From NCBI RefSeq assembly GCF_006716565.1, contig NZ_VFPG01000001.1, positions 806,001 through 870,000 of the forward strand: DNA of 64,000 nt, read 5' to 3'. A program made the translations under genes and the position numbers. The notes under the pieces were generated by a model. The model saw only the letters and a program-made list of their open reading frames with translations, ran no database searches and was not told the origin of the DNA. Positions within the stretch are counted from its first letter, which is position 1, and every line of letters starts with the position of its first letter. This document shows, piece by piece, positions 3,705-37,865 of this stretch. The stretch is from Nocardia bhagyanarayanae. Lineage in GTDB: Bacteria > Actinomycetota > Actinomycetes > Mycobacteriales > Mycobacteriaceae.

Positions 3705-4675
3705 GGCACGAACTCCACATTCGAGGCGGACAGGCCGGAATCGCCGCGGGTCACGGTGACCCGGAACCGGTAATACCGCGTCTGCGGCTCGGCTTGGCCC
3801 GCGTTGGTCAGGGTCTGCTTGGCGGCGACAAGCACCTTCGCCGAATCGTCGGCGTCGCTTTCCAGGGCCGCCTCGACGATCTCGCCGTTGGAGACGACCT
3901 TGGCCTGCTGCACGATGCTCAGGAAGGGGTCGACCCGGCCGTCGAATTCGGTCTTGAACTGGCCGGAGGCCATCGAGAGGATCCGGTCGATGTCCTCTTT
4001 GGCGGAGTCGGCCCGGATGGTGGTCAGATTCAGGATCGCCTGCCGCGCGGTCTGCACGTATTCGGTGCGGCGCTGCTCGCGCGCGTCGGCCGACCGCGCG
4101 ACGATCGTGGAGACGACGGCGCCCGCGACGAGTGCGAGGACGAGGACCGCCGACGCCGCCATCGCGACGATGCGTCCGATGCCGAGCTGGTCGCGCGAGG
4201 AGTCCGCGGACGCGTCGTCGGGCTCGTCGGAATCGGCGGCGGCCGACTTCGCAGCCTCCGACTTACCGAGGTCGACCGATGGCGAACCGGCGGAATCCGA
4301 ATCCTTCGCCGAGTCGGCCGAACCGGCCTTCGCCGCCTCACCCTTCGTCAGCCCGACGGAATCGGCGCTCTCGGCGCCAACGCTCTTCGTCAGCTCGACC
4401 GAATCGGCGCTCTCGGCGCCAACGCTCTTCGTCAGCCCGACGGAATCGGCGCGCTCGGCCCTGACCTCCCGGCTGACGGAATCGGCCTCACGCACAGTCG
4501 CGCCGCTCTCGGCGCCGACGCCCTTCGCGGCCCCAGCACTTCCCGCGCCCTGCACCGCTGCGGCACCGACCCGCTCGGTGACCTTCTCCGTCACCGAGGA
4601 CGCGTCCTCCGGCGGGCCCGCCGACCGACTGGCCCGCCTGCGCGCGCGATGTGCATCTCCGTTGATTTCACTCAT
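3701..4675 (-). CDS. Mce-associated membrane protein with long Ala/Ser/Asp-rich N-terminus (Rv3493c-like)
   Basis: 324 residues from the ATG at 4675, which overlaps the mce4F stop (ATGA 4672-4675). Residues 1 to about 165 are low-complexity and charged and contain a 14-residue tandem repeat (ADSVGLTKSVGAES, about 2.5 copies). A single membrane helix follows (IVAMAASAVLVLALVAGAVVSTIVA), then an extracytoplasmic Mam-type domain (REQRRTEYVQTARQAILNLTTI...FKTEFDGRVDPFL). Positive-inside topology puts the repeat tail in the cytoplasm. The family domain is clear; the repeat tail looks like a lineage-specific extension. Confidence 0.8.
   Translation of the reverse strand: MSEINGDAHRARRRASRSAGPPEDASSVTEKVTERVGAAAVQGAGSAGAAKGVGAESGATVREADSVSREVRAERADSVGLTKSVGAESADSVELTKSVGAESADSVGLTKGEAAKAGSADSAKDSDSAGSPSVDLGKSEAAKSAAADSDEPDDASADSSRDQLGIGRIVAMAASAVLVLALVAGAVVSTIVARSADAREQRRTEYVQTARQAILNLTTIRADSAKEDIDRILSMASGQFKTEFDGRVDPFLSIVQQAKVVSNGEIVEAALESDADDSAKVLVAAKQTLTNAGQAEPQTRYYRFRVTVTRGDSGLSASNVEFVP
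4343..4450 (-). repeat. 42-base in-frame tandem repeat
   Basis: The motif CTTCGTCAG recurs at 4343, 4385 and 4427, exactly 42 bases apart, with near-identical sequence between. It encodes the 14-residue repeat in the cytoplasmic tail of the Mce-associated protein. Copy number could differ between strains. Confidence 0.85.
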
Positions 4676-24249: not shown

Positions 24250-24265
24250 CTCAGAGGCAAACCTG

Positions 24266-24575
24266 GGTAGGCAGACATCCTGGGAACCCGCAACATTGGG
24301 ATGAAACCCTGGTAGGCAGACATCCTGGGAACCCACAACATTGGGATGAAACCCTGGTAGGCAGACGCCCTGGGAACCCACAACATTGGGATGAAACCCT
24401 GGTAGGCAGACCATCCAGGCACCTGCAACATTGGGATAAACCCTGGATAGGCAGAACATCCTGGGAACTCACAACATTGAGATAAAACCCTGGTAGGCAG
24501 ACCATCCGGGCACCTACAACATCGGGATGAAACCTAGGTAGGCAAACCCTCTTGGCCACCCGCAACATTGGGAAC
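24266..24575. repeat. Tandem array of seven 44-47 base units
   Basis: The motif GGTAGGCAGAC starts at 24266, 24311, 24356, 24401, 24445 (variant), 24492 and 24537. Units share CAACATTGGGATGAAACCCT and a more variable central 14 bases; later units diverge. Read on the minus strand it gives a 15-residue periodic frame (CLPGFHPNVVGSQD), but no start signal or gene-like features support translation. Not CRISPR: there are no unique spacers. Confidence 0.85.
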
Positions 24576-31151: not shown

Positions 31152-33712
<2,561 letters not shown>

Positions 33713-34075
33713 CAACTTCAACCATTTTCGCACCCGTTGGTTGAACGTTCATCCCAAAGCCCGCAAAACGTGTCGTACGCCACACAATGGCCAGTACAGC
33801 CGACTAGATGAGATGTCAGCTATCTTTTCGCTATCATTGCCTCGTCCGGGAAGAACCCCGCGACGGGCCAGAACCGGGTCGTACCGCCCTTGGACTAGAG
33901 ACGTTGGCGCGACCCGCAAACGCAACCGTCTCAGTGACTTCGCCGACGGCGCACCTAGAAGCTTCAAGGAAATCCTGAATCAGGCGTAGGTTTTCAGTTA
34001 CTGAGCCGCTAATATCAATGATACGTATCCGAGATAACGACTGTTAGTACAGCGAAGGGAATTGGGCGGCTCACA
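33713..34075. other. AT-richer intergenic region before EspR-like gene
   Basis: 363 bases with no convincing gene. It holds two short perfect palindromes: TGAACGTTCA (33742-33751) and GATACGTATC (34020-34029), the latter 47 bases before the EspR-like ATG. The drop in GC against both flanks fits a promoter region or the edge of an inserted segment. Confidence 0.5.
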
Positions 34076-34492
34076 ATGGCTGATTTCGCGGCGCGGCTGA
34101 ACAAGCTGTTCGAAACCGTGCATCCCCCGGGGCGCAAGCCGCACACCAACGCGGAGGTTGCGGCTGCGCTGACGGCCTCCGGGCATCCGATCTCGAAACC
34201 GTATCTCTCGCAGTTGCGGTCGGGCCAGCGGACCAACCCGTCGGACGAAACGGTGGCTGCACTGGCCAAGTTCTTCAAGGTCAAGCCGGACTACTTCTTC
34301 AACGACATCTATGCCGCCAAGATCGATCACGATCTAGAGCTGCTGTCCCAGCTGCAGGGCTACGGACTGCGTCGGCTGTCGAGTAGGGCGTTCGATCTGT
34401 CCGAAGAATCGCAGAACCTCCTCACCTCCATGGCGGAGAAGCTTCGGGCCAGCGAGGGCTTGCCCGAAATTCCTCCGGATGGAACCGAATAG
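34076..34492 (+). CDS. EspR-like HTH nucleoid-associated regulator
   Basis: 138 residues. N-terminal ADFAARLNKLFETVHPPGRKPHTNAEVAAAL, then an HTH with SKPYLSQLRSGQRTNPSDETVAALAKFFKVKPDYFFND and a C-terminal helical dimerisation part (RLSSRAFDLSEESQNLLTSMAEKLRASEG). This is the layout of M. tuberculosis EspR (132 residues), an architectural regulator with a C-terminal dimerisation domain. It is likely a paralogue dedicated to the neighbouring island. It converges on the membrane protein/metalloprotease operon. Confidence 0.85.
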   Translation: MADFAARLNKLFETVHPPGRKPHTNAEVAAALTASGHPISKPYLSQLRSGQRTNPSDETVAALAKFFKVKPDYFFNDIYAAKIDHDLELLSQLQGYGLRRLSSRAFDLSEESQNLLTSMAEKLRASEGLPEIPPDGTE

Positions 34493-34505
34493 GGTTCTCC
34501 CACAG

Positions 34506-34542
34506 CGCAGCACAGTGCGGCCATCGGTCGCACTGTGCTGCG
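34506..34542 (+). terminator. Hairpin after EspR-like gene
   Basis: Perfect 14-base stem CGCAGCACAGTGCG / CGCACTGTGCTGCG with a 9-base loop, starting 14 bases after the stop codon. Confidence 0.8.
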
Positions 34543-34917
34543 TTGTGCGCGAGCCAGTCCGTGACCGGGCCGAGACCGTCGACGGCGCAGACCTTTCCGC
34601 CGAAGTCAATTCGGCGGCGTAGTCGCATTCCGTAGTTCCGCGGATTGCGTTCGCAACGATTCGCAATCCGCGCTGCGCAAGAACGTTTGAAAGTGCATCG
34701 CCGATCGATACTGCGGCGGACGTGATCGCCATTGCGCAAACGCGTGTCACACAACGTCATCGGAGCCGAGACAGTTCTGTCTCTTTTCGGTCGCCCCTAT
34801 TTCCAGGGGCATTCCCATTCCCTCCATGGACACCGGTCCAACTTCAGGTATGCCTCGCTGTCGTCACGGTGACGGATACCATCACCGCCCGGCCGTCAGC
34901 GCTGTGAGCGGGTCGGG
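34543..34917. other. Intergenic region between convergent genes with a second hairpin
   Basis: No gene is supported. A perfect 11-base inverted repeat CGCGGATTGCG (34639-34649) / CGCAATCCGCG (34662-34672) with a 12-base loop is present; it might serve the minus-strand operon as terminator although it lies about 250 bases past that stop. Confidence 0.45.
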
Positions 34918-35940
34918 TCATCGGGAGGCGGAGCGCTCCGCGTGCGCGCCCGTTGTGGATTGGTAGGCGCGAGCGATCGCCTGCACCCAGCCGCGCGGAC
35001 TGACGCCTTCCGGCGGAGCGATCCAGCGCGCGTCGATCACTATGTCGCCCAAGGGATTTCGCGCCCAATGCGCCACCCGATCAGCGCGGTCGGCCACGGC
35101 GGCAGGCGGCGCTCCCGCGGCGACCAGCTCGACACCGCCGCCCGATTGCAGGTAGAGCGCGTCCATGATCTGGGCGACCTGGTCCGAAGCCCGCAGCTGC
35201 GTGGAGGTTCCGGTCTGCTCGTGCGCCACCACTTCTGGGAACCGGCCCACCATCAGGCGGTGCAGCGGCCGAATCCGGCGCAGTAGCACCCTCGCTCGCA
35301 CCCACAGCTCCACCACGATCCACACGGCGCCGAAAGCGACTAGGAGAGCGGCGATTTCCCACGCGGGCCAGCCCCACGTCGGTTCACCCGCGGGCGCGCG
35401 CGGTTCGTCGGCAAGCGCGCGCTGAACATGAAGGGCCGCGAGCACGCCGACCAGCGCGGTGCCCGCGGTGTAGATGGCGATGCCGCGGCCGAGTGTGGTC
35501 CAGTCCAGGTTCCGCAGACCGGTCACGACGACGAAGATCGCGCCGAGCACCACGAGGCCCCAGCCGAACGTGTACGACAAGGCAAGCGCGAGGGCCACGG
35601 CGGTGGCGCCCGCCGCGTAGATCACCATCGCGATCTGGCGCAGGTTGCGCCGGGAGACCACCGGCCACGCCGCGGCGGCCACCACCGAGGTCGCGGTGAC
35701 GAACGCGAGCCAGGCCGACACCACGACGCCATCGGACAGCAGTCCCGAGCGCAGGCCGTGCGGGCGCAGATCGTCTATGGCGAGGGCGATCTCGGGCACC
35801 GCGACCGTCGCGCCGAGCGCGACCGCGGCCACCGCGACGACGATCGCCACCCGCGCCGTCGTCGCGGGCTTCACCAGCACGCGCCCCACGCGCGCGCCCG
35901 CGGCGACCCACACCAGCATGGCCGTCAACCAGAGCGTCAT
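34918..35940 (-). CDS. Seven-helix membrane protein, MAB_1171c/DUF6545-like
   Basis: 340 residues. About seven membrane helices (near residues 2-18, 28-50, 70-95, 103-120, 123-140, 152-172, 188-212) are followed by a cytoplasmic C-terminal domain (RRIRPLHRLMVGRFPEVV...QVAQIMDALYLQSGG). This fits the actinobacterial family annotated as MAB_1171c putative transporter, whose function is unknown and which is often found with XRE regulators and ImmA/IrrE proteases. ATGA overlap with the metalloprotease gene (35937-35940) implies tight co-expression. Confidence 0.75.
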   Translation of the reverse strand: MTLWLTAMLVWVAAGARVGRVLVKPATTARVAIVVAVAAVALGATVAVPEIALAIDDLRPHGLRSGLLSDGVVVSAWLAFVTATSVVAAAAWPVVSRRNLRQIAMVIYAAGATAVALALALSYTFGWGLVVLGAIFVVVTGLRNLDWTTLGRGIAIYTAGTALVGVLAALHVQRALADEPRAPAGEPTWGWPAWEIAALLVAFGAVWIVVELWVRARVLLRRIRPLHRLMVGRFPEVVAHEQTGTSTQLRASDQVAQIMDALYLQSGGGVELVAAGAPPAAVADRADRVAHWARNPLGDIVIDARWIAPPEGVSPRGWVQAIARAYQSTTGAHAERSASR

Positions 35941-36452
35941 CCGAGTGCCTCATCGAATCGTAGGACCGAGACGCCTGCGCCTCGGCTGTTGAAGACGCGC
36001 AGCCGGGTCATCAGCATGGCGGCGAAGGTCTCGGCCTCCCACTCGGCGAGTTCGTCGGCGCCGTCGTCGACGATCTGCTGATGGGCCCGCTGGCTCAGCA
36101 TGTAGGCGATCAGGTCGTCGCTGGCCTCCAGCGTCACCTCGGGCGCGGGCGCGCCCTCGTGATCGAAGACGATGTGGCCGAGTTCGTGTGCCAGCGTGTG
36201 ATCTCGGCTTGGCAGCGCGGTCGCCAGCACGATGACGTCGCGATCGGGATAGAACCTGCGCTGTCCGCATACGCCGGGACCCAGTTGCGCGCTGGCGATC
36301 TCGATTTCCCGCTTGCGTTCCGCGGCGACCGCGGCGACCACTTCGTCCAGGGTGGTCGCGTCGAAGTCGGCGGCCACGGCGCACACCGCGTCGACCGCGG
36401 CCGCCACCCGCCGATAGGACCGGGAGCTGCTCTGGGTCCTGCTCTCACTCAT
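35937..36452 (-). CDS. ImmA/IrrE-type zinc metalloprotease
   Basis: 171 residues. Zinc site HELGH at residues 89-93 in HTLAHELGHIVFDHEG, with a downstream ExE-type acidic ligand region (ELAEWEAETFAAML, around residues 134-147). No HTH is attached, unlike fused IrrE proteins. Known members cleave XRE repressors (ImmA-ImmR, IrrE-DdrO), so the EspR-like protein at 34076 is an obvious but unproven target. It starts 10 bases after the repeat-protein stop and overlaps the membrane protein gene. Confidence 0.85.
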   Translation of the reverse strand: MSESRTQSSSRSYRRVAAAVDAVCAVAADFDATTLDEVVAAVAAERKREIEIASAQLGPGVCGQRRFYPDRDVIVLATALPSRDHTLAHELGHIVFDHEGAPAPEVTLEASDDLIAYMLSQRAHQQIVDDGADELAEWEAETFAAMLMTRLRVFNSRGAGVSVLRFDEALG

Positions 36453-36462
36453 CGCTGCTCCC

Positions 36463-37518
36463 TCACGACCTCGGGCCGAAGAACTGGGCGCGGGCGGCGT
36501 CCACCCTGGCCTGCGCGGCGGAGGCGCTCTGGAAACTCACCGCGCCGGAACCGGTTCCGGCGAGCGCGAGCGCGATGAGGCCGCCGACGACCGAGAGCAT
36601 GTCCGGTTCGGGCAGTCCGTCGTCGGCGCTCGTCGGGCGCACGTCGTGGTCCGGTTTGGCGGGCGCCTGCGGCGCGGGAGGCGGTGGTGGGGGCGCCTGT
36701 TCGGGGACCGCCTCGGGAGCGTGCGGCTCGGCGACGAGGACCGGCGCGAGTTGCGGAGCCTGGATGTTCGGCACCGGCACGGGCGGAATGACAAGGGGCA
36801 CGGCGGGAATCGTGGGCGGGGCCGGGAGCGGGATCAGCAGGAGCAACAGGGGCGACGCGGAACCTACCGCGGCCGAACCGACGGCGGCGGAGCCGAGACC
36901 CGCGGAACCAACGCCCGCAGAGCCGACACCTGCGGAACCGACGGCGGCGGAACCAACGCCCGCCGAACCGACACCCGCCGAACCGACTGCGGCGGAACCG
37001 ACTCCGGCCGAGCCAACGCCAGCGGAACCCACGGCCGCGGAACCCACAGCGGCCGAACCGGTTCCGAGCAACGCACCCACTCCGGCCGAACCGGTGCCGA
37101 GCAACGCACCCAAACCGGCAGACCCGGTACCCAGCAGCGCACCCAATCCCGCAGACCCGGTACCGAGCACAGCGCCGAGCCCGGCCGAACCGGCCGCGCC
37201 CGCCGAACCGAGCCCGGCGGAACCCGCGGCGCCAGCCGAGCCGAGGCCTGCGGAACCCGCGGCGCCGGCGGAACCCAGTCCAGCGGAACCTGCGGCACCG
37301 ACCGAACCGGTACCGGACGAACCGATTTCCGCGGCGGCGGGTTCGGGGGTCATGGGGACGAGGGGCAATCCAGGGCCCGGGGCGGGAATGCTCGGTTGTG
37401 CCGGTTCCTCGAGCGGTATGCCACCCGGTTGCGCGACGGCGGCGACGGAGCCGAGTAGCGCGAAACCGGTCACCGCTCCGGCTAGAGCCAACGCACGGAC
37501 AGTGCGACCAACGGCCAT
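36463..37518 (-). CDS. Secreted Gly/Ala/Ser/Val-repeat protein
   Basis: 351 residues, strong ribosome site GGGGAAGG before the ATG at 37518. Signal peptide residues 1-29 (cleavage likely after AVA). Residues 71-222 are repeats: four 11-mers of GSAGAAGSAGL type, four 11-mers of GALLGTGSAGL type, then about twelve pentamers GSA(A/G)V in a period of three. A Pro-rich stretch (residues 223-290), a short hydrophobic segment (308-322) and a charged tail follow. No family recognised; probably a cell-envelope filament or wall-spanning protein. First gene of a three-gene operon with the metalloprotease and membrane protein. Confidence 0.75.
   Translation of the reverse strand: MAVGRTVRALALAGAVTGFALLGSVAAVAQPGGIPLEEPAQPSIPAPGPGLPLVPMTPEPAAAEIGSSGTGSVGAAGSAGLGSAGAAGSAGLGSAGAAGSAGLGSAGAAGSAGLGAVLGTGSAGLGALLGTGSAGLGALLGTGSAGVGALLGTGSAAVGSAAVGSAGVGSAGVGSAAVGSAGVGSAGVGSAAVGSAGVGSAGVGSAGLGSAAVGSAAVGSASPLLLLLIPLPAPPTIPAVPLVIPPVPVPNIQAPQLAPVLVAEPHAPEAVPEQAPPPPPPAPQAPAKPDHDVRPTSADDGLPEPDMLSVVGGLIALALAGTGSGAVSFQSASAAQARVDAARAQFFGPRS
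36853..37308 (-). repeat. Coding repeats of 33 and 15 bases
   Basis: DNA for residues 71-222 of the secreted protein: eight 33-base units followed by about twelve 15-base units, in phase. Such arrays are prone to length change by slippage. Confidence 0.85.
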
Positions 37519-37865
37519 GCGCCAGCCTTCCCCTCTTCGTACAGCGCAGATCTATGCCCGGTCGCAACACCTCATCCGGGACTTTTCGACGACGGGTGCC
37601 AATAGTAAACCCCCGTTCCGAACCTCGCAGTAAAAGGTTGGGCGCGCTGGGCGACATCCCGAGCGACGCGCGGCTCGAATCACTCGGGTTAGCCCGAACT
37701 TCACTGGAGGACGCGCAGGGCCGCCTAGCAAACGCACCTGCACGAAGGCCTTCACAGCACGTGGTCCGTCAGAGATCAAGGCGGAGATGCGCCCCCGGCC
37801 GCGCAGGGCTGGAGCGCGGGCAGGGAACGCCCCCTGACGGACGCAGGTCATCGGTAGCCGCGCAT

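Follow-up and report, generated by a model that had tools for sequence, protein, structure and literature searches.

An EspR-like regulator, an M78 metalloprotease and two membrane proteins in Nocardia bhagyanarayanae as a candidate envelope-linked proteolytic switch

The window analysed here is a stretch of 64,000 nt from Nocardia bhagyanarayanae (contig NZ_VFPG01000001.1, positions 806,001 to 870,000; genome size 7.56 Mb). It holds four neighbouring genes coding for an EspR-like helix-turn-helix (HTH) regulator, an ImmA/IrrE-type (M78) zinc metalloprotease, a seven-helix membrane protein and a repeat-rich stalk protein. We propose that the locus represents an envelope-linked proteolytic switch in which the protease, under the seven-helix and stalk proteins, would cut the EspR-like regulator, and assign this reading a probability of about 0.5. 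It is favoured because the pair of protease and EspR-like gene is kept across differing settings, because the tail of the stalk protein is conserved across genera and because the related pairs IrrE-DdrO and ImmA-ImmR work by cleavage (for the latter see PMC2701414, available to us in excerpts). The comparison of genomes supports a partnership of the two genes, a one-way dependence, membrane anchoring and a local constraint on EspR in mycobacteria.

The protease gene and its EspR-like neighbour

All four open reading frames (ORFs) lie where the initial annotation had placed them. The genes for the stalk protein (36463-37518, 351 aa), the protease (35937-36452, 171 aa) and the membrane protein (34918-35940, 340 aa) follow each other in this order on the minus strand, from 37518 down to 34918, and the gene of the EspR-like regulator (34076-34492, plus strand, 138 aa) converges on them. 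The predicted operon is exact in the sequence, with a gap of 10 bases between the stalk and protease genes (36453-36462) and an ATGA overlap of the protease and membrane protein genes (35937-35940). The set is flanked by genes for a fadA5-like thiolase and a short-chain dehydrogenase, whereby the fadA5 and Rv names of the flanking genes are presumed labels, in part taken over from the initial annotation.

The EspR-like protein matches Mycobacterium tuberculosis EspR best among PDB entries (3qf3, E=6e-38, residues 3-129 of 138, ~53% identity), also by structure (Foldseek, E=3e-11), and Pfam HTH_3 is found with 2.8e-7. The similarity spans the full length, i.e. the N-terminal HTH as well as the C-terminal part, which places the protein in the EspR family. 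The protease was assigned by Pfam Peptidase_M78 (E=3.6e-6, 27.2 bits at a cut-off of 22), a cut-off below which a mycobacterial orthologue (L112, 16.3 bits) and a paralogue (L066, 18.3 bits) remain. H89, E90, G92, H93, E137 and E141 are invariant in 26 aligned sequences and comprise the HELGH zinc-binding motif (residues 89-93; 36174-36188, minus strand) and two downstream glutamates. PADLOC matches the protease to capP (8e-8) and the regulator to capH (7e-5), and searches for PDB relatives of the protease gave chance matches only (sequence E 0.15-0.18, profile E 0.05-0.07). At the C-terminus of the protease (35940-35954, DEALG), E168 is nearly and A169 and G171 are fully invariant in the 26 sequences. 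These residues form a possible docking end.

Orthologues of the protease are present in 52 of 59 Nocardia genomes, including the one studied here, and the same 52 carry the full membrane protein. One of these proteases is a fragment at a contig end (G035), and in G037 protease and membrane protein lie on two contigs. The EspR-like protein is 98-100% identical in 58 of the 59 genomes, compared to 64-78% for the membrane protein. G023 is devoid of an EspR-like orthologue as well as of the operon. In G004 and G055 the operon loss may be only apparent, their contigs stopping beside the EspR-like gene or inside the membrane protein. Operon remnants between intact flanks are found in G005, G026, G039 and G053. 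At four Nocardia loci (L059 to L062) with the operon in fragments and the flanks intact, the EspR-like protein is still 99-100% identical. Since this identity is kept in Nocardia without the full operon, the EspR-like protein does not appear to be a repressor dedicated to this locus.

At the family level, 85 of 201 genomes have an EspR-like match at E<=1e-25, and 53 of these 85 possess a protease within 5 kb. Using the best 60 of 82 protease matches for pairing, every protease with E<=8e-30 (52/52) has an EspR-like gene no more than 3.42 kb away, measured from start to start, so that an XRE-type gene stands beside the protease throughout. At the order level, 21 of 249 genomes contain the protease. 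All of them belong to the same family and, as judged by eye, have the gene beside an EspR-like one; this survey was confined to matches of E<=1e-15, with weaker relatives outside its scope. The 15 named loci fetched via the protease all show the neighbourhood among the matches listed (15/15). The conserved neighbourhood, on whose existence the signalling module suggested in the initial annotation had been made to depend, is hence found in Nocardia, in the family and at the named loci alike.

The setting varies. The set is located beside fadA5 in Nocardia and some other genera and beside other genes elsewhere. Its orientation is convergent at most loci, and at all six loci read from two genera (6/6) the EspR-like gene is co-directional and upstream of the operon. 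In one genome (G245), one EspR-like copy is solitary and another lies with the protease. Because strong protease matches are always near an EspR-like gene while the latter often occurs without a protease, the protease seems to depend on the EspR-like gene and not vice versa.

Distant paralogous ImmA sets with a nearby EspR-like and/or MAB_1171c-like gene were seen at eight further Nocardia loci (L064 to L069, L071 and L077), with no stalk-like ORF upstream of the protease. Furthermore, a 174 kb contig of Nocardia G121 carries two further EspR-like copies with 77% identity (C2 72362, 146594), and no protease was matched near the one copy that was read (L182).

Two membrane proteins encoded with the protease

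The AlphaFold2 model of the membrane protein (mean pLDDT 92.8) shows seven transmembrane-type helices (residues 2-23, 28-46, 68-90, 97-120, 123-143, 149-176 and 191-233) and a helical C-terminal domain of about residues 213-340, which is probably cytosolic. The initial annotation had labelled the protein as MAB_1171c-type. A distant relationship holds, and the label as such does not, the scores being under both curated cut-offs: 12.5 bits (E=0.055) at a cut-off of 100 for the MAB_1171c family NF042915, and 16.9 bits (E=0.0094, residues 213-308) at a cut-off of 24.4 for DUF6545 (PF20182). With hhalign, a partial match of 128 columns to two MAB_1171c-family-like proteins was obtained (74% probability, E=2.7e-5). 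Closer matches to MAB_1171c come from two mycobacterial module proteins (1e-10 and 9e-9) and from a paralogous Nocardia module protein (3e-27, 95.6 bits), but all of them stay below 100 bits. Judged by these profiles, the protein of the window is only distantly related to the MAB_1171c and DUF6545 families. Matches to G protein-coupled receptors (GPCRs; E >=0.18, TM by query 0.23-0.43, 50 listed) were set aside as generic seven-helix bundles. No papers on DUF6545, or on ImmA/IrrE in Nocardia or Rhodococcus, were found in the open literature searched.

The stalk protein of the window consists of a signal-peptide-like hydrophobic N-terminus, GSAGV-type repeats (array at 36856-37309, Tandem Repeats Finder), a Pro-rich part, a transmembrane segment and a conserved tail. 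Its hydropathy maximum (1.65) starts 43 residues from the end. The transmembrane segment (about residues 309-327) and the inner tail SFQSASAAQARVDAARAQFFGPRS are encoded at 36466-36594 on the minus strand. To follow these elements across genera, the ORF upstream of the protease was surveyed at 49 protease loci by hydropathy and alignment. At 44 of the 49 (24/24 in Nocardia, 20/25 in others) the ORF ends with a hydrophobic segment, which begins 34-51 residues before the C-terminus, and a subsequent tail of the type FxxAxAxQARxxAARAEFFGP; this count leaves out L108 (a chance pass of the filter), adds L039 and L055 and takes L051 as present. In the stalk gene of L051 (Nocardia G049), the repeats and the conserved tail are in different frames, explained either by a frameshift or by an error in the repeat sequence.

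The middle part is of low complexity throughout, with GSAGV repeats in Nocardia and Thr/Pro-, Gly/Asn- or Pro-rich sequence in other genera. A signal-peptide-like hydrophobic stretch (>1.5 within the first 45 residues) is present in 34 of 43 stalk ORFs as called; in the remaining nine the longest start was taken, or the ORF is short or spurious. In mycobacteria the tail is shorter and only loosely similar, and was detected at 11 of 16 protease loci. Both hydropathy and alignment point to a membrane anchor and away from free export. The stalk protein is hence better read as a single-pass protein of the type I membrane protein plan, whose outer stalk varies and whose inner tail is conserved.

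EspR diversity, predicted cleavage region and leader

In mycobacteria (genus g29) the EspR-like gene is the orthologue of espR (L117 copy against M. tuberculosis EspR: 2e-68). SodA is encoded near the locus (PDB 1ids, 5e-133), together with genes which we take to be Rv3847-, Rv3848- and Rv3850-like. In 16 of 28 g29 genomes with EspR, espR and the Rv3850-like gene are separated by the genes for protease and membrane protein; in the other 12 the two directly adjoin each other. EspR of module-bearing loci is 82-89% identical to the L117 copy. A stalk tail, a protease and a membrane protein converge on EspR in at least seven named mycobacterial records (7/7 of those listed, all found via the protease), which include Mycolicibacterium pyrenivorans DSM 44605 and Mycobacteroides sp. 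CBMA 271. M. tuberculosis presumably has no such operon. The loop in its EspR sequence from the PDB is of the type found without the protease.

We compared the diversity of EspR between 23 protease-bearing and 12 protease-less mycobacterial loci. The N-terminal part hardly differs, with 0.056 (with protease) and 0.054 (without) for residues 1-30 and 0.071 and 0.049 for residues 31-60. Diversity without the protease is higher at residues 81-95 (0.096 versus 0.297), at 96-112 (0.064 versus 0.280, ratio 4.4) and at 113-132 (0.241 versus 0.339). The stretch 96-112 corresponds to helix 7 and the loop before helix 8. None of 500 subsamples of 12 protease-bearing loci exceeded 0.095 there, and the difference was reached by 92 of 20000 position permutations. 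Residues 1-80 as a whole have a without/with ratio of 1.1, the Rv3847-like protein one of 0.84 and the Rv3850-like protein one of 0.93. A protease that acts on the EspR-like protein would fit both the one-way dependence and this local diversity, a pattern that may be a mark left by the enzyme on the protein it is proposed to cut.

The ratio of C- to N-terminal divergence was determined for other genera as well. With protease it amounts to 0.96 (g23), 0.94 (g22 and g9) and 1.56 (five other genera), and in Nocardia with protease to 12.75. Since the N-terminal part hardly varies in Nocardia, this ratio alone does not track the protease.

The predicted cleavage region of the EspR-like protein comprises residues 101-109 (34376-34402, plus strand; RAFDLS at 104-109), at the end of helix 7 and in the loop before helix 8. 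In the model, the helices span residues 98-104 and 110-126, with pLDDT <50 at 99-106. The corresponding stretch of mycobacterial EspR hardly varies at loci with the protease and is diverse at those without it. The prediction is made by likeness to DdrO, a protein of 129 residues which IrrE cuts at 106/107 (L106/R107), in the loop between the last two helices (PMC8072749, in excerpts). EspR itself dimerises via its C-terminal domain (PMC3315491, likewise in excerpts).

The leader of the EspR-like gene (33986-34135, plus strand), i.e. ~90 bp upstream and the first 20 codons, is near-frozen in Nocardia. Positions 33986-34075 have a mean identity of 96.8% to the window at 29 Nocardia loci, and synonymous-codon identity amounts to 0.99 for codons 1-10 and 0.92 for codons 11-20 (30 loci). 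The fadA5 gene, used for comparison, reaches a mean of 0.64 and 0.79 in its best 10-codon block; as an exception, one 10-codon block of the ImmA gene has a value of 1.00. This conservation, synonymous sites included, may exceed the needs of a simple promoter. The leader may act at the RNA level; Rfam, searched in 33700-37800, has no family there or elsewhere in this region up to E=1.

Within the leader, a perfect inverted repeat (TCAGT-T-ACTGA, 33994-34004) is followed by TAATAT (34010-34015, plus strand), a possible -10 element by sequence and conservation that is not among the sites from our promoter scan. The inverted repeat also occurs at two loci from two other genera (L134 and L136) and differs by one base at L135. 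The 24-base pattern of inverted repeat and TAATAT has a single exact occurrence in the genome, with one further site at 3 mismatches. According to the excerpts of PMC3315491, M. tuberculosis EspR has a binding site upstream of its gene and seems to be subject to autoregulation, and by this analogy the inverted repeat is likely an operator for autoregulation of the EspR-like gene. The palindrome was not found at the promoter of the stalk operon (exact patterns, 22 Nocardia upstream stretches, that of L051 being misplaced).

Just 3' of the EspR-like stop codon and facing the convergent operon, a perfect hairpin of 14 bp with a 9-nt loop (34506-34542) lies within a self-complementary match at 34493-34555. 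It is a candidate bidirectional terminator, although the terminator scan, which demands a T-run, did not call it. This simple scan reported two promoter-like and two terminator-like sites, none of which entered the interpretation. Elsewhere in the window, seven tandem repeats of 45 bp (24259-24573) and a tandem repeat of 42 bp with 2.8 copies (4343-4459) were found.

The proposed switch, its alternatives and its meaning

The switch would work as follows. The stalk protein would reach into the cell envelope and sense it together with the seven-helix protein, and the stalk tail and the helical domain of the seven-helix protein would restrain or activate the protease. On a signal, the protease would cut the EspR-like protein in its dimerisation half, close to the loop that separates the last two helices. 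Cleavage would break the dimer and weaken its hold on DNA, as IrrE does to DdrO, and would change the regulon. The EspR-like gene would reset its own level via the near-frozen, palindrome-bearing leader. The signal, the contacts, the cleavage and its outcome are those parts of the switch that we infer.

Among the closest known systems, IrrE-DdrO of the Deinococcus radiation response shares an M78 metalloprotease and an XRE-type regulator of ~130 residues with the window, and DdrO is cut in its C-terminal dimer domain (PMC8072749, same excerpts). Unlike DdrO, the regulator of the window is EspR-type; moreover two membrane proteins belong to its locus, and IrrE has a further GAF-like domain, whereas the window protease is only 171 aa long. 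CapP-CapH of CBASS is a further known pair of M78 protease and XRE regulator, and both this pair and ImmA-ImmR of ICEBs1 sit on mobile elements or in defence systems. Their protease and XRE genes are adjacent, as are the genes with capP and capH matches in the window, but the latter are chromosomal, have membrane partners and include a strongly conserved regulator. M. tuberculosis EspR belongs to the same protein family as the regulator of the window, but no protease partner of it, and no paper linking EspR with an ImmA-type metalloprotease, was found in the open literature searched. Makarova and co-workers give a list of XRE-COG2856 pairs and have set aside three gene pairs in which an XRE repressor is combined with a membrane protein (PMC2701414, in the part at hand). 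The pair of M78 protease and XRE regulator as such is already known.

Several observations weigh against the switch. Among the known pairs, DdrO resembles the EspR-like protein in the HTH part only, and the C-terminal halves do not match. For the seven-helix protein, none of 404 Foldseek matches with E of up to 10 reaches E<=0.001, so no significant structural relative emerges from this search. Five of the 49 protease loci surveyed lack a stalk gene, and in mycobacteria none was detected at 5 of the 16 loci with a protease; three loci are shared between the two counts. As for EspR diversity, the stretch 96-112 was picked after the alignment had been seen; the strongest window of 17 residues is 91-107, and several windows from residue 81 on beat 96-112. 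Residues 61-80 are also more diverse without the protease (0.107 versus 0.043), and SodA shows a without/with ratio of 1.48 (12 and 7 sequences). Furthermore, the protease-less mycobacterial loci form two adjoining clades, so a single loss of the protease may explain all of them, and the clade of four sequences alone has a diversity of 0.118 at 96-112, near the maximum of 0.095 in protease-bearing subsamples. The protease-loss lineages g6 and g10 have C/N divergence ratios of 0.69 and 2.17. The losses in g6, g10 and Nocardia are not clearly accompanied by drift of EspR, of which little or none is seen.

Among the alternatives, the one that survives best assumes that protease and membrane protein sense for another substrate and that the EspR-like protein regulates the operon among many targets, such that the neighbourhood would reflect regulation and not proteolysis. 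The far higher conservation of the EspR-like protein than of its neighbours and its survival of operon loss are as expected for a global regulator, and EspR of M. tuberculosis is a nucleoid-associated protein with genome-wide binding (PMC3315491, in the excerpts mentioned). Taken alone, however, regulation leaves the proximity at all 52 strong protease matches unexplained, as well as the localised diversity of EspR in protease-less mycobacteria, and we regard it as rather unlikely.

The second alternative treats the stalk protein as the output, namely as an envelope repeat protein under control of the switch whose tail is merely an anchor or a wall-sorting signal. This is close to the initial annotation, which had envisaged a secreted repeat protein at the end of the signalling chain. 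Across genera, anchor and tail are the conserved part and the exposed stalk varies, GSAGV being its Nocardia version; a freely secreted output is for this reason not our first choice, and of the imagined chain the conserved neighbourhood stands whereas this end point is not supported. Moreover, no LPXTG-like motif common to the genera was seen by eye in the stalk alignment. An output role would be in line with the first position of the gene in the operon and with its repeat-rich product carrying a signal-peptide-like N-terminus, and a knockout of MAB_1171c, the distant relative of the membrane protein, cut biofilm by about half (PMC8707978, in excerpts). We hold it to be unlikely, and slightly more doubtful than the assumption of another substrate.

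That the locus is of the XRE-COG2856 kind, as a toxin-antitoxin-like system or the remnant of a mobile element, is very improbable. Such pairs abound on phages, prophages and plasmids (PMC2701414, in the part at hand), and by eye two distant Nocardia paralogous modules lie near phage recombination-like (L064) and integrase-like (L065) genes, but the flanks of the orthologous module are fixed at those Nocardia loci that were read, no toxin gene of known kind was recognised in it (Pfam, curated-family and PADLOC scans), and the EspR-like gene persists without the protease. The one-way persistence itself fits a protease toxin and a one-substrate protease alike and therefore does not separate them.

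If the proteolytic switch holds, a cleavage event initiated at the cell envelope may govern regulators of the EspR type. Tentatively, and with slightly less than even confidence, we suggest that EspR arose as the target of an envelope-sensing protease relay and not as a free-standing nucleoid protein; EspR of protease-less mycobacteria would then be a former switch whose cleavage region drifted after the loss of its cutter. EspR is a well-studied, autoregulated global regulator of M. tuberculosis. If a proteolytic switch acts on its family, Nocardia, Rhodococcus and many mycobacteria would have a path, open to testing, by which the state of the envelope influences gene control, and two membrane protein families that are so far uncharacterised would gain a function. 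Protease-XRE switches, which serve mobile elements, defence and radiation response, would thereby extend to a protein of the nucleoid-associated type.

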